64,000 bases of DNA from Natribaculum luteum (GTDB taxonomy: Archaea; Halobacteriota; Halobacteria; Halobacteriales; Natrialbaceae): contig NZ_CP095397.1 of NCBI RefSeq assembly GCF_023008545.1, positions 1,674,001-1,738,000 of the forward strand. The letters run 5' to 3'. Positions within the stretch are counted from its first letter, which is position 1. Each line of letters begins with the position of its first letter. Shown here one piece after another: positions 5,285-26,844 of the stretch. The position numbers and the translations under genes were made by a program. Below the pieces are notes generated by a model. That model ran no database searches, was not told the DNA's origin, and worked only from the letters and a program-made list of their open reading frames with translations.

Positions 5285-6145
5285 TCACGCGTGTTCGTCG
5301 AGAAACGAGCGGAACGTCTCGTTGACCCGGTCTGCCTGCTCGATGAAGAACAGGTGCGACCCACCCGCGAACGTCTCGAGGCGGCTGTCCGGAAGCTTCT
5401 CGTGGAGTAACCGCCCGTTCTCGACGGGGACGACGCGGTCGTCGGTCCCGTGGAGCACGAGTGTCGGCACGCGAATGCGCCGGAGCCGCTCGCTGACGTC
5501 GAAGTCGGCCACTGCAACAGCCTGTGCCTCCCGAGCCGGATCGTCTGCGTCCTGCTCGAGTCGCCACTCGATGATCCGGTCCATCAGGTGCGGGTTCCGG
5601 TTCGTGAACCGCTCGGTGAACGCGGGTCGCATCCGGTGACGGAGCGTCTCGCGTTCGTTCGCCCCCGCTGGAACGTCGAAGATCTGTTCCTGGGTCTCGT
5701 CGGGGACCGGTACCGCGTCAGGGCCGCCGTGGTTCGTACAACACAGCGTCAGCGTCTTCGCTCGATCGTACTCGAGGGCGTACTGCTGGGCGATCATCCC
5801 GCCCATGCTCGCGCCCACGACGTGGGCGTCGAAGACGCCGGCGTCGGCGAGGATGGTCTCGAGGTCGGCGGCGAGCCCCTCGATCGAGTAGCCGGCGAGC
5901 GTGGCGAGGACGAGCCTGCGGAGCCGTCCGGGGAGTTTGCGGACGACGACGTTCAGGCCGTCGTCCGAGCGGCCAGTTCCCCGGTTGTCGGGTGCGACGA
6001 CGTCGTACTCGTCGTCGACGGCCTCACGCTGCCAGCGCCACATCCAGCGCCCGTAGCCCAGCCCCTGGACGAAGACGACCGGGTCGCCGTCGGACTCGTC
6101 GCGCTCGTAGTAGATCGACACGCCGTCTCTGGTCGCCCGTGGCAT
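5285..6145 (-). CDS. Alpha/beta hydrolase, 286 aa
   Basis: Serine hydrolase of the alpha/beta fold; the substrate cannot be read from sequence. The oxyanion-hole region is VFVQGLGYG, the nucleophile elbow VVGASMGG (GxSxG), the catalytic acid likely in LHGTDDRVVP and the catalytic His in GGSHLFF near the C-terminus. The start MPRATRDGVSIYYE at 6145 is preferred over upstream in-frame codons because the fold begins there. It is the first gene of a probable two-gene unit with the MFS exporter and is divergent from priL. Confidence 0.88.
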   Translation of the reverse strand: MPRATRDGVSIYYERDESDGDPVVFVQGLGYGRWMWRWQREAVDDEYDVVAPDNRGTGRSDDGLNVVVRKLPGRLRRLVLATLAGYSIEGLAADLETILADAGVFDAHVVGASMGGMIAQQYALEYDRAKTLTLCCTNHGGPDAVPVPDETQEQIFDVPAGANERETLRHRMRPAFTERFTNRNPHLMDRIIEWRLEQDADDPAREAQAVAVADFDVSERLRRIRVPTLVLHGTDDRVVPVENGRLLHEKLPDSRLETFAGGSHLFFIEQADRVNETFRSFLDEHA

Positions 6146-6281
6146 ATCTCGACTGACGTGTCGGGGGTTCTTGAAATCGCCCGTTGCGACGGGAACCGCT
6201 CGCGGCTGGCGGTCGTCGGCCGATCGATGTCCGCGTGGCTGTCGATCCCGTCTATTTTCCGGAGCGACCGACAATCATCGC

Positions 6282-6288
6282 GTTTAAC
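6282..6288 (+). promoter_or_regulatory. TATA-like box for priL
   Basis: GTTTAAC about 26-32 bases before the priL ATG, inside the 168 bp divergent region shared with the hydrolase gene. Confidence 0.4.
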
Positions 6289-6313
6289 CCGTCCGAGCGA
6301 AATCCTAGGATCG

Positions 6314-7393
6314 ATGCAGCGACTGCACGCCCGATACCCGTTCCTCCAGGCTGCCCGCGAGTCGGTGGCGACGGAGGCGGTCGACCTCGCGACGGTCGTC
6401 GAGACCGACGACGCAGTCGTCGACCGCGCCCGCGAACGGGTTGTCGCCGCCGTCGAGGAGGGGGAGACGGGCGAACCGCGCCGGGACGTCCGCACCGAGT
6501 TACTCTCTTACCCCGTCGCGCGGGTCCTCGTCTCGCTCGTCGACCAGCCGGTCCTCGTCCGCAAGTACGCCCGTGCGGAGGCCGCGACGGCCTACGATCG
6601 GTTCACCGCCGATTTCGAGGACACGACCGAACTCAAGAGCGTCGAGAACACCGGCGTCGACCTCGAGACCCTGCTGGCCGAGTTCGACCTCGAGGGCGCG
6701 GTCTCCGAGACGGGCGAGGGCTACCGGATCGACGTCGGTGCGTACCTGCCGCTGGCGGCGGACCTGTGGGGCGACGAGTGGCGACTCGTCAACCGGGCAC
6801 TGGCGGACGGCGAGGTGCCCGTCTCGGAGGCCGAACTGCTGACGCTCTGCCGGGAGGCCGTCCGCGAGCGCGTCGAAGAAGGGTTGCCGTTCGACGTTCC
6901 CGACGCGATCGCGAGCGCACTCGAGTCCGAGGCCGCTGCGGTCCGGGAGGTCCTCTCGGATCTCGACCTCACTCGCGAGATCGACACGGTCGTCCCCGAG
7001 TTGTTCCCACCCTGTATGAAGGCCCTGCTCGACGACATCCAGAAGGGCGAACATCTGCCCCACCACTCCCGATTCGCGATCACGTCGTTTCTCACGAGCA
7101 TCGGAATGAGCACGGACGAGATCGTCGAACTCTACCGGGTCAACTCCTCCTTTGGCGAGGAAATGACCCGCTACCAGACCGACCACATAAGCGGGGAGAC
7201 GTCGCCGACGGAGTACTCGCCGCCGTCGTGTGCGACGATGCAGTCCTACGGCGACTGCGTCAACAAGGACGATCTCTGTGAGCGGATCGCCCACCCGATG
7301 GCCTACTACGAGCGGCGCATCGACGACACCGACGACGACGACCTCGAGGACTGGCGCGAGGCGCGGGCCGACGGGGAAGCCGAGGCGGACTGA
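6314..7393 (+). CDS. priL: DNA primase large subunit PriL
   Basis: Regulatory subunit of the archaeal/eukaryotic primase; with PriS it makes RNA primers. The protein is 359 residues. The N-terminal helical part (MQRLHARYPFLQAARE..., YPVARVLVSL) is followed by a C-terminal domain with four conserved cysteines, C234, C306, C315 and C322 (PPCMKALL, SCATM, GDC, DLC), which are the 4Fe-4S ligands of PriL. The segment HLPHHSRFAITSFLTSIGM is highly conserved in the family. The catalytic subunit PriS is not in this window. The TGA stop forms the left end of repeat B2. Confidence 0.95.
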   Translation: MQRLHARYPFLQAARESVATEAVDLATVVETDDAVVDRARERVVAAVEEGETGEPRRDVRTELLSYPVARVLVSLVDQPVLVRKYARAEAATAYDRFTADFEDTTELKSVENTGVDLETLLAEFDLEGAVSETGEGYRIDVGAYLPLAADLWGDEWRLVNRALADGEVPVSEAELLTLCREAVRERVEEGLPFDVPDAIASALESEAAAVREVLSDLDLTREIDTVVPELFPPCMKALLDDIQKGEHLPHHSRFAITSFLTSIGMSTDEIVELYRVNSSFGEEMTRYQTDHISGETSPTEYSPPSCATMQSYGDCVNKDDLCERIAHPMAYYERRIDDTDDDDLEDWREARADGEAEAD

Positions 7394-7498
7394 TACTACT
7401 GACAGAGTCACACATCGATCGCACTCGAACGGCTATCGCCAGCGTCGACGGGCCGTGAGACGCGATCGAGCGGTCAGTGACTGTTGTCCGGCAGTATG
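7391..7498 (+). repeat. Family B palindromic repeat, copy B2
   Basis: 108 bp between the convergent priL and GNAT genes. The left end TGATACTACTG contains the priL stop; the right end TGTTGTCCGGCAGTATG stops one base short of the GNAT stop codon. It is homologous to B1 and B3 along its full length (shared ATCGCACTCGAACGGCT and GAGACGCGATCGAG). The right flank is TGC rather than TGA. Confidence 0.85.
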
Positions 7499-7499
7499 C

Positions 7500-7988
7500 C
7501 TACAGGTCCAGTGTGTACACCACCTCCGTTCGTTCTTCGTCGCCGATCTCGACCGTTCCCTCGCCGCTCGCTTCGAACCCCAGTTCCTCGTAGAAGGCGC
7601 GGCCGCCGTCGTTCGACGCGAGGTCGATCGCTCGCATCCGCTCCATATTGAAGTCTTCCAGGTCCTCGCGCAGGCGCTCGTGGAGGGCGGTGCCGATCCC
7701 CGCTCGCTGGTTGTCGGGACGGACGTACATCCGCAAGACGTCGCCCTCGTCTCCCTGGACGACGCCGTGGGTGAAGCCGACGACCTCGTCGTCGCTCTCG
7801 GCGACGAGCACGGCAGTCCCGGGTTCCGAGAGGGCACGCTCGAGTTCGTCGTCGGCGTACCACTCGTCGACGGTCTCGTCGATCGTCTCCTCGTCGAGTT
7901 CGTCGTAAGTGTCGTGCCAGGCCTCGCGGGCGACCTCGCGGATCGCCTCGCGGTCGGCTGTGGTGGCCGGTCTGATCTCGATACTCAT
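7500..7988 (-). CDS. GNAT-family N-acetyltransferase, 162 aa
   Basis: Acetyl-CoA-dependent transferase of unknown acceptor. Shows the GNAT core: an N-terminal strand-helix (IEIRPATTADREAIREVA), motif A with acetyl-CoA binding LRMYVRPDNQRAGIGTALH (the Q/RxxGxG/A pyrophosphate loop), and motif B with YEELGFEASGE. The start ATG 7988 sits directly before the conserved IEIR strand. The nearest neighbours are unrelated informational genes, so the context gives no substrate. Confidence 0.9.
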   Translation of the reverse strand: MSIEIRPATTADREAIREVAREAWHDTYDELDEETIDETVDEWYADDELERALSEPGTAVLVAESDDEVVGFTHGVVQGDEGDVLRMYVRPDNQRAGIGTALHERLREDLEDFNMERMRAIDLASNDGGRAFYEELGFEASGEGTVEIGDEERTEVVYTLDL

Positions 7989-8139
7989 AGCGTGTGCTAC
8001 GGGGCCGGTTGACAAAGTTATGGTACCGACTCGAGGGGGACGATTCGACCGTCACACCGCCGGCTGTCTGCCAGTTCCGGCGCCCACGACCGGGTGGGGG
8101 CACCGAGGCTGGGGGAACCGAGGTGGGGTCAGCCGTCGG

Positions 8140-8436
8140 TCACTCCCTGACTTCGAACCCGCGTTTGCGCAGCAGGTCCGGAACCCTGTCGCGGTGGTCG
8201 CCCTGGAGTTCGATCCGTCCCTCGTCGACCGTTCCGCCGGTCCCAATCGATGATTTCAGCTCCGAGGCGACCGACTCGATCTCGGCTTTCGGGAGGTCGA
8301 AGCCCTCGACTATCGTCACCGGCTTTCCGTACCGCCGCGTCTCCGTGCGGATCGACAGGATCTGTTCTGCGGTCTCGAGGTCGCCGTGACTGTCGAGTTC
8401 GTCGAGCAGGTCGTCGAGTGGGTCGTCGTTGGACAC
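8140..8436 (-). CDS. eif1: Translation initiation factor aIF1 (SUI1 family)
   Basis: Small ribosome-binding factor that promotes fidelity of start-codon selection. The 98-residue protein has a flexible acidic N-terminus and the SUI1 fold, recognisable in RRYGKPVTIVEGFD, LKSSIGTGGTVDEGRIELQG and the closing helix VPDLLRKRGFE. The basic/glycine loop GTGGTV is the family hallmark. It is a single gene between the GNAT gene and uvrC, all on the minus strand; the 96-base gap from uvrC suggests its own promoter. Confidence 0.93.
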   Translation of the reverse strand: MSNDDPLDDLLDELDSHGDLETAEQILSIRTETRRYGKPVTIVEGFDLPKAEIESVASELKSSIGTGGTVDEGRIELQGDHRDRVPDLLRKRGFEVRE

Positions 8437-8532
8437 GTGCTAACAGAGGTGCTGCAAGAGCAAAGCCCTATCCAACCGTTGGTGGTTTGATAACATCTAT
8501 CGGTTGTCGGTCTTTCGGGACGAGCGGCTCTG

Positions 8533-10314
8533 CTACAGCCGATCCTTGACGGTTCGAGCCGTCTTCTCCCCGACGCCCGCGACGCTCTGGAGGTCCTCGA
8601 GGCTCGCCTCGCGGACGTTCTCGACGCTGCCGAAGCGACCGAGCAGTCGCTTTCGCGTTTCGGGCCCGATCCCGGGCACGTCGTCTAAGACCGTCTTCAC
8701 CTCGTCGCGGACCGTCTGGTGGTACTGGACCGCAAAGCGGTGGGCCTCGTCTCGAGCGCGTTGCAGGAGGTGCAGGTGCGGCGCGTCGCTCGGCCAGGCG
8801 TACTCGCGGTCGGGGGCGATCACGCGCTCTTCGGCCTTCGCGAGCGCGACGGCCGGGACGTCCCAGCCGACGTCCGCGAGGGCCTCCCGGGCCGCCTCGA
8901 GTTGCCCCTCGCCGCCGTCGATCAACAGCAGATCGGGGTCGGGTCGGTCGTCGCGGCCCTCGACGGCGCGGCGCGCGCGCCACTCGAGCAGGGCGCGCAT
9001 GTTGTCGTAGTCGTCGTTCTGGTCGGTCAGTTTCTTCCGTCGGTAGTCGCCTTTCTCGGCGCTGCCGTCGACGAAGGCGACGTCGCTCCCGACCGCCGAT
9101 TTCCCCTGGGCGTGGCTCACGTCGAAGCCCTCGATCCGCCGGACGGTTTCGAGTCCGAGGGCGTCAGCCAACATCCCACACTCGTCGCGACGACCGACGT
9201 TCCGCCGGGCGTTCTTCAGCGCGAGGTCGACGAGTTTCGCCTCCCGACCCGCACCGGGCACCCGGACGGCGACGCCTTCGGCCTCGAGCCAGGCCGCGAG
9301 CTCCTCGTCGTCGTGGCGTTCGGGAAGCAAGAGGGCGTCGGGGAGGTCGCGTTCGGCGTAGTACTGCACGACGAACGCCGCGAGCACCGCGGGGACACCC
9401 TCGTTCTCGCCGGCGGGCGCGCCGAGGCCGTGGCGGTCGCGTTCGACGAGTTTGCCGTCCTCGGCCCGCAGGCGGGCGACCGTCGCCTCGTCGCCTTCGA
9501 TCGCCACACCGAGGACGTCGACGGTCCGTTCGTCGCTTCGCGACTGGACCGCCTCGCCGCCCTCACCGTGGAAGGCCTCGACAGCCTCGAGTCGATCCCG
9601 GCGGTTCGCGGCGCGTTCGAAGTTTCGATCCTGTGCTGCGGCCTCCATCTCCCGGCGCAGCGGGTCCGCGAGGATGCCCGTCTCACCCTCGAAGAACCGC
9701 CGGACGCTCTCGACGTCCTCGCGGTAGCTCTCGGGGTCGATCTCGCCGGTACAGGGCGCGGTACACAGCCCCATCTCGTAGTCGAGACACGGCCGATCGC
9801 GACCGGCGTACTTGTGGTCTGAACAGCCACGGACGCCGTAGATCTCACGGAGGGCTTTCACGATCGTCTCGACCCGTCCTTTGTTCGTGAACGGGCCGTA
9901 GACCGTCGCGGCCTCGCTCGCGGTTCCACCGCTCGTATTCGAGGCGCTCCGCGTCTCGCCGTCCGGATCGCGAGTAATCTCGATCCGCGGCGCGTCGTGG
10001 TCCGTGAGCTGGACCATCGGGTACGACTTGTCGTCTTTTAGCCGGACGTTGTACCGGGGCTGGTGGCGCTTTATCAGATTCGCCTCGAGCAACAGCGCCT
10101 GCGTCTCGGTGTCGGTGACGGCGATCTCGAGGTCGTCTGCGCGCTCGACCATCCGGCGAATGCGCGCGCTTCGCGGGTCGGCGTACGAGCGCACTCGCGA
10201 GCGGAGGTCGACCGCCTTGCCGACGTAGAGGGTCGTCCCTTCGGCTCGAAACTGGTAGACCCCCGGCTCTCGCGGCAGTCCGCCCGCGCGCTCGCGCACC
10301 GCGTCGGCGTTCAT
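8533..10314 (-). CDS. uvrC: Excinuclease ABC subunit UvrC
   Basis: Dual nuclease of bacterial-type nucleotide excision repair, making both incisions around a lesion marked by UvrAB. The 593-residue protein has the N-terminal GIY-YIG nuclease (GVYQF..., [15 protein letters not shown]), a Cys-containing stretch near 145-165 ([19 protein letters not shown]), a UVR motif near residues 200-235, an RNase-H-like second nuclease core ([28 protein letters not shown]), and a C-terminal helix-hairpin-helix pair ([33 protein letters not shown]). Haloarchaea carry UvrABC by ancient transfer from bacteria. UvrA and UvrB are not in the window. Confidence 0.96.
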
Positions 10315-10379
10315 CGCCAGCCCATAGCCACCCGACGGATTTCAGCCTGACGTCGGCGGACCGTGCGTTGCTGCGTCGC

Positions 10380-12197
10380 CTACGGTCGGCCCAGGAGCCG
10401 CTCGCGAAGGCTCCGATCCGTCTCGCGCTCGGCGAGCAACACCGGGCAGTCGACCTCGTTGACGACGTCGAGGTGCAGCGACTCGGTCGCGAGTCGCGAG
10501 AGCAGCCCCCGCTCGGTCGCCCCGATCAGGATCATGCTGTGATCGGCCGCCTCGCGGGCGATCGCCCCCTCGACGTCGCCGGAGGTGTCGACCACGCGGT
10601 CGACGCCGTCGTCGAAGCCGTACTCGTCGGCCCAGTCGGCGAGGGCGACTTCGGCTTCCTCGCGCTCGTCGGGGTCGTCGACGACGTGCAAGAGCGTGAT
10701 TTCGGCACCGACGCTCGAGCGCAGCGCCCGTCCGACCTCGGCGCTCAGCTCCGAGTGCCCGTCGCACGCGGTCGGCAGGAGGATCCGCGAGACGTCGAGT
10801 TCGCCGTCGTTGAGCACGAGGAAGTCGGATGGAAGGTGGCGGGCCAGGTCGCTCAACGAGCGGTCGGTTCGCCCGGCAGCCCACAGTCGGTCGTCGTCCC
10901 AGCTGAGCACCACGAGATCCGCGCGCTTGCGTTCGGCGACGTCGAAGATCTCCTCGAACGAGCGGTGAGAGACAACGGTCGAGGTCTCACACTCGACGCC
11001 GTGTGCGTTCGCCATCTCGCGGGCTGTCTCGAGCAGTTCGTCGGACTCGGCGACGATCTGCGTGCTCTGACCGACGCCGTACCCACGAGACATCCGGTCT
11101 GGCACCTGGACGATGTGGACGACGTGGACGACGGCGTCGTCTCTCCCCGTCGCGAGCGTGCAGGCGAGGTCGACCAGGTGCGATTCGGTTCGCGGATTCG
11201 CGATCGGGACCAGAATGCGATACTGCTCGCCGTCAGTTGCGGGCATCTCGGCGGTATCGATCAACGGCACGTAGGACCGGCCAACCAGCCCGCCGAACAG
11301 CCACTCGCGGATCGAGAGCTGTCGCTCCGTCCCCCCGAACCGGGCGGACTCGAGTCGACGTTCCGTGGTCTGAAAGTAGTTGACGACCGTCAGGAGCAAG
11401 ACGCCGCCGATGGTGTTCCCGAGTAACACTGGCAGGACAAAGCCCGTCAGTCCGGTGACAAACGAGAAGTCGGTCTGGAAGACGAGGTACAGCATCTCCG
11501 AGAAAGAGACGACGACGTGGAACAGCCCCCCAAGCGGGATCGCGAGGAAAGCGAGGTAGACGACCACGAGCCGCGAGATGGTGTCTCGAGCGGCGTAATC
11601 GACCCAGACCACGCTCGCGACGATCAGGCCGGCGAACGCGGCCTTGAAAAACAGCGTCCAGCCGTCCGTCGCGACCCCCTTCTCGGCGACCTCGATCGCG
11701 ACCGCCGCTGCGTCCGGGGAGAACACGCCGCCCCACGCGAGGGCGGCCGCTCCGGCGGCACCACCGACGAAGTTTCCGGCCAGCACGACCGTCCAGTTGC
11801 GAAGCAACGCCGGAATACTGGCCAGTCGCTCCAGGGTGAGCGCGACGGGTGGGAGCGTATTTTCCGTGTACAGCTGGTAGCCACCGATGATGATGTAGAT
11901 GAACCCGAGCGGATACAGCAGGGCGCTCAACACCGGGTCACCGTTCGTCGACGCCTCCATCGAGACGTACAGCAAGACCGTGATCGTGATCGCGAAGCCG
12001 GCCGCGAGGCCGCTGAAGAACAGTTCGCGACTCCCCGAGGTGATCTCCTCGTCGGCGGCCGCCACGATCCGCTGGAACACCTCGTCGGACGAGAAGCGGT
12101 CGCGGACGACCGCGCCGACTGCCGGCGCACCGCTTCTCGACCGTTCGACCGCTTCGCGTACCGTCTCCTCCGGATCTTGCCGGTCAGAGTCGTCCAT
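10380..12197 (-). CDS. Formate/nitrite-type (FNT) channel fused to two UspA-like domains, 605 aa
   Basis: Residues about 50-320 form an FNT-family pentameric channel core with six membrane segments (blocks ELFFSGLAAGFAITIT, GGYQLYTENTLPPVAL, GNFVGG, VVNYFQTTERRLE). Residues about 335-465 and 470-590 resemble two universal-stress domains (YRILVPIAN..., ISRILLPTACDGHSE), which would lie in the cytoplasm. The nucleotide loop is degenerate in both: domain 2 has GATERG but lacks the distal GS. The permeant ion is unknown. A paralogue lacking the USP part lies at 60154-61137, next to a separate USP gene. The start MDDSDRQDPEETV matches the paralogue's N-terminus. Confidence 0.88.
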   Translation of the reverse strand: MDDSDRQDPEETVREAVERSRSGAPAVGAVVRDRFSSDEVFQRIVAAADEEITSGSRELFFSGLAAGFAITITVLLYVSMEASTNGDPVLSALLYPLGFIYIIIGGYQLYTENTLPPVALTLERLASIPALLRNWTVVLAGNFVGGAAGAAALAWGGVFSPDAAAVAIEVAEKGVATDGWTLFFKAAFAGLIVASVVWVDYAARDTISRLVVVYLAFLAIPLGGLFHVVVSFSEMLYLVFQTDFSFVTGLTGFVLPVLLGNTIGGVLLLTVVNYFQTTERRLESARFGGTERQLSIREWLFGGLVGRSYVPLIDTAEMPATDGEQYRILVPIANPRTESHLVDLACTLATGRDDAVVHVVHIVQVPDRMSRGYGVGQSTQIVAESDELLETAREMANAHGVECETSTVVSHRSFEEIFDVAERKRADLVVLSWDDDRLWAAGRTDRSLSDLARHLPSDFLVLNDGELDVSRILLPTACDGHSELSAEVGRALRSSVGAEITLLHVVDDPDEREEAEVALADWADEYGFDDGVDRVVDTSGDVEGAIAREAADHSMILIGATERGLLSRLATESLHLDVVNEVDCPVLLAERETDRSLRERLLGRP

Positions 12198-12379
12198 CGT
12201 CGCCGCTAGTCTCTAGGATGACTAATCGTTTGGCATCTCGTCGTCACGTCGGTCGTACGGGGAGTCGGCCGCCTGCTCGAGGCGACGGCAGTTCCGAAAG
12301 ACCGGACGATGTCGACGACGTGACGGTCAGCGCTGGACGACTCAGCAAGCTTCATAACGGTCACGACGTATCACAATTT

Positions 12380-13609
12380 ATGCGCGACAGTTTTGACGTG
12401 GTCATCGCTGGTGCCGGCCCCGCCGGCGCACAGTGTGCACGCGATCTTGCTGCGAGGGGCTACGACGTCGCCGTCCTAGAGACAGAGCCGGAAGACGAGT
12501 TCCCACGTCAGAGCAACAAGTCGACTGCCGGGACGTTCCCATCGATGATGGCTGCCTTCGGGATTCCGGACGACGTCGTGATGAACTTCACCGACAGCGT
12601 CGTGATCGAATCTCCCAACGAGTACTTCGTCCAGGAGCAGGCCGGTGCCGTCCTCGAGTTCGCCGACTTCAAGAACTTCCTGGTCGAGGAGGGCCGGAAA
12701 CACGGTGCCGAGTACCGGTTCGATGCCCGCGTCTCGAGTCCCGTGATGGAAGGCGGCGATCTCGTCGGAGTGCAGTACGACGGGTCCGAAGAGGTCTACG
12801 CCGACGTCGTCATCGACGCGACCGGTCCGGCCGCCCCGCTCGCGAAAGCCCTCGGCGTGAGTGACCTGACACGCGAGAAACAGGCGATCGGTCTCGAGTA
12901 CGAACTCGAGGGGGTGACGGTCGACCAGCAGGGGTATGCGGACCTGACGGACGCGATGATGCTTCGACTGGACCACGACCTCGCGCCCGGCGGCTACTCC
13001 TGGATCTTCCACACTGGCGACGACACGGCGAAAGTCGGCGTCTGCTACATCCAGAACGAGAGTTACCAGCGACACGTCGAGGCGAACCGCACTATCGACG
13101 GCTACCTCCAGTACTGGATCGACACCGACCCACGATTCGAGAACGCGACACGACTCGAGGGCAAACAGCACCGTGGCTCCGCACACATCCAGCGTCCCGG
13201 AAGCCTGAGTACAGACAACTTCATGGCGATCGGCGATACGGTCCCGACGATCGATCCCCTCTGGGGCGAGGGGATTCACAAGGGTATGCGCTCTGCGCGT
13301 GCCGCCGCGGTCACCGTCGACCACTGTCTCACTCCCGACGAACCGGATACGTCTGCCGAGAACATCTCCCTGTATGACGACCTCTGGCACAGAGACGTTG
13401 CCCCGCTTATGGATGCCCGGCTGTCGATGACCCAACTGCTGTATCTCGCCCCCAACGACCGGTACGACACCCTGCTTCGGGATCTGAACCGACTCGACCG
13501 GGAGACGCTGAGCAAGGCAAACAGCGGCAACAAACTCGCGATCTCGAAGCTACTGCACCTCGAGGACCTCCCGTTGCTCGCGGAGTTCGCCAAACACCGA
13601 TTCTCATAA
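12380..13609 (+). CDS. Geranylgeranyl-reductase-family flavoprotein, 409 aa
   Basis: FAD-dependent oxidoreductase of the family that saturates isoprenoid chains or hydroxylates quinone-like substrates. The N-terminus has the Rossmann dinucleotide motif (VVIAGAGPAGAQCARDLAARG), with an acidic residue ending strand 2 (VAVLE). The second FAD motif is NFMAIGDTVPTIDPLWGEGI near residue 280. A C-terminal helical part follows. ATG 12380 is chosen because it opens directly into the flavin motif and lies about 26 bases after a TATA-like CTTCATAAC (12350-12358). Possible roles are archaeal lipid or menaquinone/carotenoid modification; the exact substrate is not readable. Converges with the membrane protein gene, 8 bases away. 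Confidence 0.85.
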   Translation: MRDSFDVVIAGAGPAGAQCARDLAARGYDVAVLETEPEDEFPRQSNKSTAGTFPSMMAAFGIPDDVVMNFTDSVVIESPNEYFVQEQAGAVLEFADFKNFLVEEGRKHGAEYRFDARVSSPVMEGGDLVGVQYDGSEEVYADVVIDATGPAAPLAKALGVSDLTREKQAIGLEYELEGVTVDQQGYADLTDAMMLRLDHDLAPGGYSWIFHTGDDTAKVGVCYIQNESYQRHVEANRTIDGYLQYWIDTDPRFENATRLEGKQHRGSAHIQRPGSLSTDNFMAIGDTVPTIDPLWGEGIHKGMRSARAAAVTVDHCLTPDEPDTSAENISLYDDLWHRDVAPLMDARLSMTQLLYLAPNDRYDTLLRDLNRLDRETLSKANSGNKLAISKLLHLEDLPLLAEFAKHRFS

Positions 13610-21026: not shown

Positions 21027-22220
21027 ATGACTGACACCGAATCCACGACCGAATCGCACGCGACCGACGCCGACTTCACCGTCACGCCCTACGCCGTTGC
21101 CGGCGAGGTCGACTACGAGAAACTGCTCGAGCGCTTCGGTGCCGACCCGCTGACCGACGAGCAGGTCGCTCGCTTCCCCGATCACCCGCTGGTCCGCCGT
21201 CGGACCTTCTACGCCGGCCGGGACGTCGACCGGTACCTCGAGGCGGCCGAGTCCGGCGACCCCCACGCGGTCGTCACCGGGCGCGGCCCCTCGGGCCCGA
21301 TGCACCTCGGGCACGTCCTCCCGCTGTATCTCGCGAGACGACTCCAGCGGGAGACGGGGGCGACGGTCTACGTCCCGCTCTCGGACGACGAGAAGTTCCT
21401 CGCGAAAGACCAGTCGTTCGAGGCGATCGGCGAGCACGCACGCGAGAACCTCCGTGACGTCCTCGCGGTGGGCTTCGACCCCGAACGGACCCGGATCGTC
21501 GTCGACACGGCCGACGCGGACGTCGTCTACCCGATCGCCGTTCGGCTCGCGAACCACCTCACGCCGGCGACCGTCGAGGCGGTCTACGGCGAGACGGACA
21601 CCGTCGGTCTGCAGTTCTACCCGGCCGTACAGGCGACCCACCTCCTGCTCCCCCAGCTCGTGGCGGGCCGTCAGCCCACCCTCGTCCCCATCGCAGTCGA
21701 CCAGGATCCCCACGTCCGGGTCTGTCGCGACGTCGCGGCGAAGGAGGCGCTGCCGGTCGAGAAACCGGGTGCGCTACTCGGACGCTTCCTCCCGAGCCTC
21801 GAGGGTCCGGGCAAGATGAGTTCGTCCGGCGACGCCCCGTCGATCGAACTCACCGACGACCCCGAGACCGTCGCCGAGACGATCCGCCGTCACGCCTACA
21901 CCGGCGGCCGGGCCAGCCTCGAGGAACACCGCGAACGCGGCGGTGATCCGACCGTCGACGTCCCGTTCCAGTACCTGCGATTCTTCTTCGAACCCGACGA
22001 CGACGACCTCGAGCGCATCGCCGCCGACTACCGCGAAGGCGACCTCCTCAGCGGCGAACTGAAGGAACTCGCCATCGAGCGGATCACCGACTTCCTGGCC
22101 GACCACCAGCGCCGCCGGGCCGACCTCGGCGACCTCGCTGTCGAACTCGAACCCTACCGGCTCACCGACGACGAACGGCGGCGGGCACTCGAGACGGCGG
22201 GAGTTCCTCGAGTCCCCTGA
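21027..22220 (+). CDS. trpS: Tryptophanyl-tRNA synthetase, archaeal type
   Basis: Class I aminoacyl-tRNA synthetase charging tRNA-Trp. The HIGH-type motif is PMHLGHVLPL in the typical context RGPSGPMHLGH, and the KMSKS-type motif is GKMSSSGDAPSI. The active-site segment VPIAVDQDPHVRVCRDVA is characteristic of the archaeal/eukaryotic TrpRS branch. The N-terminal part contains FTVTPYAVAGEVDYEKLLERFG, the usual archaeal TrpRS entry. ATG 21027 gives 397 aa; the earlier in-frame start adds residues without family resemblance. It lies inside the mixed block between rio1 and the KH gene. Confidence 0.92.
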   Translation: MTDTESTTESHATDADFTVTPYAVAGEVDYEKLLERFGADPLTDEQVARFPDHPLVRRRTFYAGRDVDRYLEAAESGDPHAVVTGRGPSGPMHLGHVLPLYLARRLQRETGATVYVPLSDDEKFLAKDQSFEAIGEHARENLRDVLAVGFDPERTRIVVDTADADVVYPIAVRLANHLTPATVEAVYGETDTVGLQFYPAVQATHLLLPQLVAGRQPTLVPIAVDQDPHVRVCRDVAAKEALPVEKPGALLGRFLPSLEGPGKMSSSGDAPSIELTDDPETVAETIRRHAYTGGRASLEEHRERGGDPTVDVPFQYLRFFFEPDDDDLERIAADYREGDLLSGELKELAIERITDFLADHQRRRADLGDLAVELEPYRLTDDERRRALETAGVPRVP

Positions 22221-22279
22221 CCCCGTCCGAACCCGCGATCGCCAGAACGCTCTTGTGTCTCGCCGACGCGCGAGGAACC

Positions 22280-22786
22280 ATGCACGTCGGAATCGTCGCG
22301 GACACTCACGACAACGTCGAGGCGGCCAGAGCGGCGACGGACGTCTTCGAGGAGGAAGGCGTCGAGGTGATCGTCCACTGTGGCGACTTCGTCGCCCCGC
22401 CGGTGATCGACGCCTTCGAGGGCTTCGAACTCCACGGCGTCCTCGGCAACAACGACGGCGAGATCGCGGGTCTCGAGGCCGCGTTCGACGCACTCGGGAC
22501 CGGAAGCGAACTCCACGGCCGGTTCGCCGACCTCGAGTTCGACGGCCTCTCGATGGCGGTCCTCCACGGGGAATCGCTCGCGGAAGTGCGCGCGCTCGCC
22601 GACGGAGAAACGTACGACTACGTCTGTTACGGGCACCACCACGAGCGCGAACACGAGACCGACGGACGGACGACGGTCGTCAACCCCGGTGCACACTTCC
22701 CGACCGTTCCGGCCGACCACCGGACCGTCGCGATTCTCGATACGCTGTCGGAGTCGGTCCGGTTCCGGTCTGTCCTCGAGGAGTAG
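22280..22786 (+). CDS. YfcE/MJ0936-type metallophosphoesterase, 168 aa
   Basis: Two-metal phosphodiesterase of the calcineurin-like fold. Metal and catalytic motifs are in order: GIVADTHDN (DxH), VIVHCGDF (GD), GVLGNNDGE (GNND), LHGE (H) and YGHHHERE (GHxH), followed by VVNPGAHFP. Family members act on cyclic nucleotides or phosphodiesters in vitro; the physiological substrate is unknown. ATG 22280 places the metal motif at residue 8. The C-terminal block DHRTVAILDTLSESVRFRSV is duplicated, with mostly synonymous changes, in the remnant at 24222-24305. Confidence 0.92.
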   Translation: MHVGIVADTHDNVEAARAATDVFEEEGVEVIVHCGDFVAPPVIDAFEGFELHGVLGNNDGEIAGLEAAFDALGTGSELHGRFADLEFDGLSMAVLHGESLAEVRALADGETYDYVCYGHHHEREHETDGRTTVVNPGAHFPTVPADHRTVAILDTLSESVRFRSVLEE

Positions 22787-23000
22787 CGGGGGTGGACTCT
22801 TCTCGGCGCGTTCCGACGGCACGCGATCCGGGTGACGGAAACGCGGACCAGGCGAGGTCGGCCACGTGATATTGTACAAGAAGTACATAACTGTATCCGG
22901 TAATATTCCGTAACGCGCTCTAAACTGGCCCGAAAGCTTACTCATATTCGTTTCTACCGGGGTAGTTTTGTTCTACTCGAGCTATACTGCTATCGTCAGT

Positions 23001-24005
23001 ATGATCACCAGCGTTCTGGAGCGTATCAAGGCGAATCTCGTCCCTGCAGTCGTCCTCGCGATCGTCGTCGGACTCGTGAGCGGACAGTTCCTCGGGCCCG
23101 GCGTCGAGAGCGCCCTGAAGGCGGCTGTCGTGCCGATTCTCTTTCTGATGGTCTACCCGATGATGATCAACCTCGACCTGCGAGAGCTGTTGAAGATCCG
23201 TCGGCACGCGGGGCTGGTCGGTGCGAGCCTCGTCCTGAACTTCGGGCTCGCACCGATCGTGGCCGTCGGACTTGCCCGGCTGTTCTTCGCCGGGGACCCC
23301 CACTACGCCGTCGGTCTGTACTTCATCGCGCTGATCCCGACCTCGGGGATGACCGCCGCCTGGACCGGACTGGCGGGCGGGGATCTCGAGGGCGCGCTCG
23401 TGGCGATGTCGGTCAATCTCCTCGCGGCCGTGGCGATCCTGCCGGCGTATCTGTCGGTGCTGGTCGGCGCGGACGTCGGGTTCGAGCCGGCGGCGCTGTA
23501 CAGACAGCTCGCGATGATCATCGTGCTCCCGATGGTTGCCGGGGCTGTCACCAGGTGGGGGCTGCTCCGCCAGTACGGATCGGACGGATTCAGGCGACTC
23601 AAACCGACGTTCGGCGGACTGAGCTCTTTCGGGGTCGTGACGATCGTGTTCGTCGCGATGGCGATGCGATCAGAGAGCATCCTCGCCGACCCGATCGCGT
23701 CGTTCGCCGTGATCGTTCCGCTGGTCGTCTTCTACGCCATCGTCCTCGGGGCCGGTTCGGTCGTCGGTCGCCGCCTGTTTGACTCCTCGCGAGCCGTCTC
23801 CCTCGTCTACGCGACGAACATGCGCAACCTCTCGATCGCACTCGCGATCGCCGCAGCACCGGGGTTTCCGCCGGTCGAGGCGGTGCTGCCGATCGCGCTC
23901 GCGTACCTCCTCCAGCCGCCCCTCGGGGCGGCGTACATGCAGTATCGTCGCGACGTCGTCGACGACGGGCGCTCGGTCCGGGACGTGATCGCCACGCTGC
24001 GCTGA
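23001..24005 (+). CDS. Bile acid:sodium symporter (SBF/ACR3-type) family transporter, 334 aa
   Basis: Predicted 10-helix secondary transporter. Typical family regions are LIPTSGMTAAWTGLAGGD near residue 110, corresponding to the first crossover motif, and LVYATNMRNLSIALAIA near residue 275, corresponding to the second. The latter resembles ACR3-type exporters and SBF proteins more than animal bile-acid carriers. The cysteine implicated in arsenite transport by ACR3 is not apparent. The substrate is unknown and no arsenic genes adjoin it. ATG 23001 (MITSVLERIKANLVPAVV) is preferred to the upstream ATG at 22968. Confidence 0.82.
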   Translation: MITSVLERIKANLVPAVVLAIVVGLVSGQFLGPGVESALKAAVVPILFLMVYPMMINLDLRELLKIRRHAGLVGASLVLNFGLAPIVAVGLARLFFAGDPHYAVGLYFIALIPTSGMTAAWTGLAGGDLEGALVAMSVNLLAAVAILPAYLSVLVGADVGFEPAALYRQLAMIIVLPMVAGAVTRWGLLRQYGSDGFRRLKPTFGGLSSFGVVTIVFVAMAMRSESILADPIASFAVIVPLVVFYAIVLGAGSVVGRRLFDSSRAVSLVYATNMRNLSIALAIAAAPGFPPVEAVLPIALAYLLQPPLGAAYMQYRRDVVDDGRSVRDVIATLR

Positions 24006-24105
24006 CGGACTCGGATCTGCCCCGTTTTTGATCGCCGACAGCGTCCGTGAACGACCCGCACAAGTACATGGAGGCGTGATCGCCCGTGCGATCGGTCGCG
24101 GCTTC

Positions 24106-24190
24106 ATAACGATAGCTGTGAGTCGTTACCGCCGCAACCGCGAACCGTCTTGCGGTTGCGTCGGTAACCAGTCACAGCCATCATTATCAC
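24106..24190 (-). repeat. Family A palindromic repeat, copy A2
   Basis: 85 bp, nearly identical to A3 and to the reverse complement of A1. Read on the minus strand it runs TGATAATGATGGCTGTGACTGG ... GCTATCGTTATGA. TGA flanks both sides as a direct repeat. It is not attached to the stop codon of any intact gene. Confidence 0.88.
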
Positions 24191-24221
24191 ACCAGGGGAG
24201 GCGTCCGGCTGCTCGGGGATG

Positions 24222-24305
24222 CCGACCGACGATCGGACCGTCGCGATTCTCGACACGCTGTCGGAGTCGGTCCGGTTTCGGTCCGTCCTCGAGACCGACG
24301 CGTGA
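24222..24305 (+). pseudogene. Remnant of a second metallophosphoesterase gene (C-terminal 27 codons)
   Basis: The frame reads PTDDRTVAILDTLSESVRFR followed by SVLETDA and a TGA stop. About 66 bases (24228-24293) match 22715-22780, the end of the intact phosphodiesterase gene, at roughly 60 positions by eye. The differences are mostly synonymous (GAT/GAC, TTC/TTT, TCT/TCC), which suggests a paralogue or a foreign allele that diverged under selection before being lost, rather than a fresh duplication. Repeat A2 ends only 31 bases upstream. Confidence 0.75.
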
Positions 24306-24410
24306 CGAGTGGCGTCCCAGATCTCGCTCGTAGCCGCCTGCTAGCGCGCCACAGCCCGAGCGTCGAGTGCGGACCAAGGCCTTAAACTGGCTGAGCCAGT
24401 ACTCGAGTAC

Positions 24411-24968
24411 ATGCAACACGTGAAGATTCCGCAGGACCGCGTCGGGGCCCTCATCGGCGAGGGCGGCGAGACGATGCGCGAGATCGAGGCGGAAGCTGAA
24501 GTGCGACTCGACATCGATTCTGAGAACGGTTCCGTCGCCGTCGAGACCGTCGGCGACCCCGTTCGCGGCCTCAAGGGTCCCGAGATCGTCCGCGCGATCG
24601 GACGTGGGTTCCCGCCAGAAGAAGCGCTGCGGCTGCTCGAGGACGACATGATGCTGTTCGACGTCGTCGACATCGACGCCGCTTCGCGCAACAAAAACGA
24701 CATGAAACGACAGAAGGGCCGGCTGATCGGCGAGGGTGGCCGCACTCGCGAACTCATGGAAGAGCTCTCGGGAGCCTCGGTCGTCATCTACGGCTCGACG
24801 CTGGGGATCATCGGCACGCCGCCGCAGGTCGACGCCGTCCGCAGCGCCGCCGAGATGCTGCTCGACGGGGCTCCCCACGGCGCGGTCTACTCGTTCCTCG
24901 AAGAGAAACACAACGAGATGAAACACCAGGGGATGCAGTACCACCGCTTCCCCGGCGGCAACTCGTAG
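24411..24968 (+). CDS. KH-domain RNA-binding protein, Dim2/Krr1/Pno1-like, 185 aa
   Basis: Archaeal homologue of Dim2/Pno1, involved in small-subunit rRNA maturation and able to bind aIF2alpha in some archaea. Two KH domains are visible: residues 1-65 (IPQDRVGALIGEGGETMREIE, a GxxG-type loop) and about 85-160 (KRQKGRLIGEGGRTRELMEE). The C-terminus is EKHNEMKHQGMQYHRFPGG. A TATA-like CTTAAACT lies 23-30 bases before the ATG, fitting a leaderless transcript. In other archaea it is typically adjacent to rio1; here about 4 kb of other genes separate them. Confidence 0.93.
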   Translation: MQHVKIPQDRVGALIGEGGETMREIEAEAEVRLDIDSENGSVAVETVGDPVRGLKGPEIVRAIGRGFPPEEALRLLEDDMMLFDVVDIDAASRNKNDMKRQKGRLIGEGGRTRELMEELSGASVVIYGSTLGIIGTPPQVDAVRSAAEMLLDGAPHGAVYSFLEEKHNEMKHQGMQYHRFPGGNS

Positions 24969-25039
24969 TCCGCCTCACACTGTCTCGACTCGAATCGTCT
25001 CTCTGCGCCCCGGTCCTCGACGACGTGCCGTTTTTCCAG

Positions 25040-25047
25040 TATAAATA
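25040..25047 (+). promoter_or_regulatory. Possible distal TATA box upstream of the thermosome gene
   Basis: TATAAATA, about 110 bases before the thermosome ATG and just after a T-run (25031-25035) that may terminate the KH-gene transcript. It is a candidate second start, in addition to the proximal box at 25122-25129. Confidence 0.35.
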
Positions 25048-25121
25048 ACCGGTCGACGATCGATCTCTCTCGAGTCGACGACGGCCGTGTGCGGCGATTC
25101 GTCTCTCCAGACACCAAAAAA

Positions 25122-25129
25122 TTTATATA
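25122..25129 (+). promoter_or_regulatory. TATA box of the thermosome gene
   Basis: TTTATATA, preceded by the A-rich CCAAAAAA (a BRE-like purine stretch). It ends 26 bases before the ATG, so the transcript should be leaderless or nearly so. It is the strongest TATA match in the window, as expected for a highly expressed chaperonin. Confidence 0.75.
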
Positions 25130-25155
25130 GAATAGCAATCAATCTCTCTCTTACA

Positions 25156-26844
<1,689 letters not shown>

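Follow-up and report, generated by a model that had tools for sequence, protein, structure and literature searches.

At T6SS and Rhs loci, new DNA enters beside the conserved part of a gene and the old 3′ end is displaced downstream, where an extract of the study describing these loci calls it 'orphaned' (PMC5361080). An excerpt on homology-assisted illegitimate recombination presents this process as one from which variation among genomes arises (PMC2884548). Among haloarchaea, passages on Haloquadratum walsbyi describe deletion-coupled insertions, in which strain-specific stretches are taken up at fixed chromosomal places, and a legend in the supplement mentions insertions or deletions touching at most a few C-terminal residues; the same passages list MITE, PATE and SMR as categories of transposase-free repeats (PMC3119063). 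A literature search on haloarchaeal crossovers returned no paper matching all terms.

Here we describe a gene relic at positions 24222–24293 of a window of 64,000 nucleotides from Natribaculum luteum (the whole stretch of DNA that was analysed). We consider it likely that a phosphodiesterase gene left its tip here, still in its original place before a KH gene, and that transporter DNA came between the two genes, the end of the phosphodiesterase gene being duplicated. Read in this way, it is a record of the arrival of a transporter in a conserved archaeal gene neighbourhood and helps to order the events there.

The relic and its gene neighbourhood

The intact parent of the relic is a YfcE-type phosphodiesterase (metallophosphoesterase) gene at 22280–22786 (+ strand; Pfam PF12850, E 4.9e-34; NCBIfam TIGR00040 yfcE, 78.7 bits, above the cut-off of 56.25), with a tryptophan–tRNA ligase gene upstream of the locus. 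It is followed by extra DNA (22787–24103, +) that extends to a palindrome, has no equivalent between the phosphodiesterase and KH genes in 19 of 43 relatives and contains an SBF/ACR3-like transporter gene (23001–24005, +; Pfam PF01758, E 6e-28), whose best NCBIfam match, TIGR00832 acr3, scores 100.7 bits, below the cut-off of 282.8. Beyond the palindrome and the relic, a spacer (24294–24410, +) leads to a KH-domain RNA-processing protein gene (24411–24968, +; NCBIfam NF010329, E 4.7e-107; TIGR03665), likely the ancestral downstream neighbour, after which comes what we take to be the thermosome gene. The palindrome (24104–24190, +; 87 bp), repeat A2 of an earlier sequence-only reading of this DNA, is an inverted repeat dispersed in many copies through the genome: scoring 40 of 203 candidates gave at least 57 match rows over the two strands. 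It also has counterparts in 75 of the 125 family genomes, and as single-stranded DNA it forms a strong predicted hairpin (z -7.5). A search of Rfam at 22000–25200 found nothing, and a promoter and terminator scan based on a bacterial consensus gave one weak site of each kind.

The relic (+ strand) matches 22709–22780 (+) of the intact gene at 66 of 72 positions (92%, ungapped; repeat search and blastn), corresponding to gene positions 430–501 of 507. It is a 5′-truncated 3′ end in the same orientation as the KH gene and 117 bp upstream of it. When the relic was searched against its own genome, the gene tail scored 104 bits (E 3e-23) and the runner-up 38 bits (E 0.002), bearing out the sequence-only reading that the remnant of a phosphodiesterase gene begins at 24222. 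The distances given there, 31 bases to the palindromic repeat and about 1.4 kb to the intact gene, are also correct; the 66 copied bases it counted are the identities, the copied length being 72. The likeness ends after CTCGAG, 24294–24305 being no copy of the gene, and the last codons read LEE and a stop in the intact gene and LETDA and a stop in the relic. No upstream extension of the window relic was found above background, and nothing in a plasmid collection matched the relic peptide.

Gene order was compared across 43 Natrialbaceae genomes in which both genes lay on the fetched stretch, one locus being counted per genome; ten fetched genomes with the KH gene off the stretch (G019, G020, G023, G042, G082, G110, G115, G117 and loci L038 and L042) and seven distant bacterial hits (L044–L050) were excluded. 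The phosphodiesterase gene stands directly before the KH gene in 19 genomes (gap 25–247 bp), the insert-free order, while 18 have a PAC2-family gene (Pfam PF09754) and/or an unassigned gene dubbed MEM178 in between, among them G093, a genome of another genus that is considered below. Other DNA fills the gap in five (the two Natribaculum genomes, G118, G008 and Saliphagus), and the phosphodiesterase gene is inverted in one (G119). The intervals of three further lineages hold different genes, namely an archaeal ATPase (L091), a CoA-transferase III (L040/L094) and a 5′-nucleotidase (L043), so that the interval has received different DNA on several occasions.

The relic and spacer were aligned with 22 phosphodiesterase-end loci from the 19 direct-order genomes. 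Given its orientation, its distance from the KH gene and its alignment with the relatives' gene ends, the relic occupies the place of the gene's tip. Only the KH-proximal part of the spacer clearly matches the relatives, and the roughly 70 bp between the relic and the KH-proximal motif have no clear homology to their spacers, so that it is gene order, orientation and spacing that support the original placement of the relic. Most simply, what separates the relic from the intact gene would be the newcomer. No second full phosphodiesterase copy was found between the phosphodiesterase and KH genes in the 42 genomes with a delimited gap, 41 of which had gaps of >30 bp and were searched. Weak phosphodiesterase-like stretches passed a threshold of E 0.001 in Saliphagus (61%), G029 (68%) and G026 (70%), against none of 41 reversed-sequence decoys; in Saliphagus the gap gene is a 5′-nucleotidase with a weak metallophosphoesterase match, which may explain the hit.

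Age, decay and source of the relic

The nearest relative found, Natribaculum breve TRM20010, is 94.8% identical over 7 kb of this region and has the same relic, palindrome and transporter at the same place. The arrangement is therefore common to both Natribaculum species and predates their split. Between the two relics, 6 of 64 aligned bases differ in addition to an 8-bp deletion in the sister, compared with 53 of 429 in four neighbouring non-coding stretches (24/213, 12/98, 12/87 and 5/31), 6 of 117 in the stretch from relic to KH gene and 22 of 507 in the intact phosphodiesterase gene. Four relic changes can be dated to after the split and every one alters a residue; together with the deletion, these substitutions indicate the absence of coding constraint on the relic, as judged from two genomes only, and in this comparison the relic looks like spacer DNA rather than a conserved small gene. 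At one site (window 24248 in the relic and 22735 in the intact gene), both copies read ATT in the window and both read ATC in the sister, an agreement within each species that, at this single site, hints at a trace of gene conversion.

Other accounts of what the relic is, or was, have to be weighed against this pattern. A complete frame of 28 codons runs from an ATG at 24219 to a TGA at 24305 of the window and could be read as a functional small gene, but the frame is absent from the sister species, where TTG stands for ATG and the 8-bp deletion leads into a different downstream reading frame; with all post-split changes altering residues as well, the sister sequence largely refutes such a gene, and we regard its existence as scarcely credible. 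The relic might instead be the end of a separate, once-functional second gene, or of a resident allele displaced by a diverged donor, its differences from the intact gene having accumulated under selection. The six differences fall at codon positions 1, 1, 3, 3, 3 and 3 and change two residues (A>T and H>D), and the sequence-only reading had taken the excess of third-position changes to mean that the gene diverged while still functional. That conclusion is not supported. A third-position share of 4/6 is not significant under random placement (P = 0.10), and not every difference is due to the relic: at relic position 33, the relic's base also occurs in the sister's intact gene and in 36 of 50 other distinct ends, which places the change in the window's own gene. 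Parsimony dates the differences at sites 4, 12 and 57 to before the split, perhaps along with that at site 63, which falls in the deletion of the sister relic; 2/3 or 3/4 of these are third positions, a share that leans mildly towards a once-functional second gene, although the sites are too few to decide. A longer second copy in G093 also speaks for such a gene, whereas the nearest 3′ ends are local and the searched gaps hold no full second copy before the KH gene. All in all, we consider a formerly functional second gene or displaced allele rather unlikely, and the few third-position differences of so short a relic do not establish past function.

Comparison with 52 distinct phosphodiesterase 3′ ends supports a nearby source, with the two Natribaculum genes closest to the relic (6/72 differences each) and the next end at 11/72. 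The sequence-only reading had named a best match to the local gene, as expected of a recent simple duplication, as a finding that would refute it; the nearest ends are indeed the local ones, but the event was not recent, the sister relic lying at the same place. A rough expectation (half of the 12.4% of the non-coding stretches plus half of the 4.3% of the intact gene) gives about 8% relic–gene divergence since the split alone, and the differences counted are 6/72 for the window and 6/57 for the sister; by this sum, whose error is large, there is little scope for a donor that had diverged strongly. No foreign or long-functional second gene needs to be invoked for the relic, though one may have been its source, and 72 bases are too few to separate self-duplication from a donor close to the genus. 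Where the sequence-only reading proposed a past duplication or allele replacement, duplication or insertion is supported, and replacement by a donor near the genus may instead have occurred.

Origin of the insertion and a second case

The neighbour order of the relatives is directly seen, as are the relic's position, presence in both species, decay and similarity to the local gene, and the following course of events would account for them. In an ancestor of both Natribaculum species, transporter-bearing DNA would have separated the main part of the phosphodiesterase gene from the KH gene, with the last part of the phosphodiesterase gene being duplicated during the insertion. The upstream copy would have remained whole with slightly altered last codons, and the downstream copy would have been cut off and have decayed since. 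A whole gene, then new DNA, then a 5′-truncated tip at the original site is the geometry expected if recombination inside the gene at one end was combined with a non-homologous join at the other, or if a circular donor entered by a single crossover, and the joining may have followed either route. The transporter and the duplication would have come in one event, and the palindrome may be a bystander or a later arrival. As a mark of an insertion the relic is unremarkable, and its neighbours make it easier to read.

The donor of the inserted stretch was not found in 125 family genomes. The first 214 bases of the extra DNA have a lengthy match only in their own and the sister genome, with short hits of 43–45 query bases in two other family genomes. 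Outside the genus, the closest orthologue of the transporter in this set is 82% identical, and six more are at 62–66%; four of the latter were inspected (G071, G056, G016 and G080), and no phosphodiesterase or KH match was present near the transporter in stretches of 11–12 kb.

Of the 98 family genomes with any tail match, about half were opened; three of the 98, namely G093 and the two of Natribaculum, have two such matches. Downstream of the intact gene of G093, after about 7 kb of other DNA, lies a second copy in decay. It has an internal deletion, is 77% identical over 149 alignment columns and 93% over 82 bases, and continues into the sequence found after the gene in all three genus-mates compared. 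G093 is an independent second case in another genus, so that a like outcome arose at least twice. In both cases the last codons of the intact gene are unlike the commonest tail of the family, but the tail varies widely across the family, and the altered last codons are for this reason weak evidence.

The recurrence of the same geometry, independently in Natribaculum and G093, speaks for a further explanation. An element with its attachment site in the 3′ end of the gene might have integrated there site-specifically, restoring the gene by a tip of its own and pushing the original one downstream, with the integrase later lost. However, the duplicated stretches differ between the two cases (gene positions 430–501 in the window versus about 158–303 plus 406–487 in G093), the Natribaculum insert shows only the transporter, and the five predicted proteins of the G093 insert (L081, contig-strand 5400–12800) have no Pfam or PHROGs match, overlapping frames lying outside the scan. 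With neither a recombinase gene nor a fixed attachment core recognised in the Natribaculum insert or the five G093 proteins, we hold integration of this kind to be highly improbable. In a broader version, the phosphodiesterase end would be a recurrent entry point for DNA in the Natrialbaceae, with the tip duplicated so that the gene survives and perhaps an unrecognised recombinase targeting the tip; this, too, we consider very unlikely. Insertion of transporter-bearing DNA with duplication of the gene end is the reading that we favour.

The genome with the inverted phosphodiesterase gene, G119, belongs to another genus and has the same transporter directly before the KH gene, with no relic. 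In a tree of KH and thermosome genes (30 of 31 intended rows, G093 being dropped because its thermosome gene was cut off), G119 falls in a group of six with Natribaculum, G008 and Saliphagus (100/100). A phosphodiesterase DNA tree (30 rows, G122 being dropped as a partial match) separates G119 (L117), together with 25 other rows, from Natribaculum, G008 and Saliphagus (98/98), and the phosphodiesterase of G119 is possibly a replaced gene. As G119 groups with Natribaculum and has the transporter before the KH gene without a relic, the transporter may precede the relic at this locus, and the transporter and the duplication need not represent a single event.

Comparison with described systems

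The favoured reading resembles the T6SS and Rhs loci, as described in the extract cited above, in that new DNA lies beside the conserved part of a gene whose old 3′ end is left downstream (PMC5361080). What is displaced at those loci consists of retained immunity genes or the 3′ regions of toxins (PMC5361080), whereas at this archaeal locus the leftover is non-functional and the joining is conjectural. From the deletion-coupled insertions of Haloquadratum walsbyi, as presented in the passages on that species (PMC3119063), the locus differs in retaining a partial copy of the end of the gene. The palindrome at 24104–24190 resembles the MITE, PATE and SMR categories of those passages (PMC3119063) in being a short dispersed repeat; neither a target duplication nor a parent transposon was established for it.
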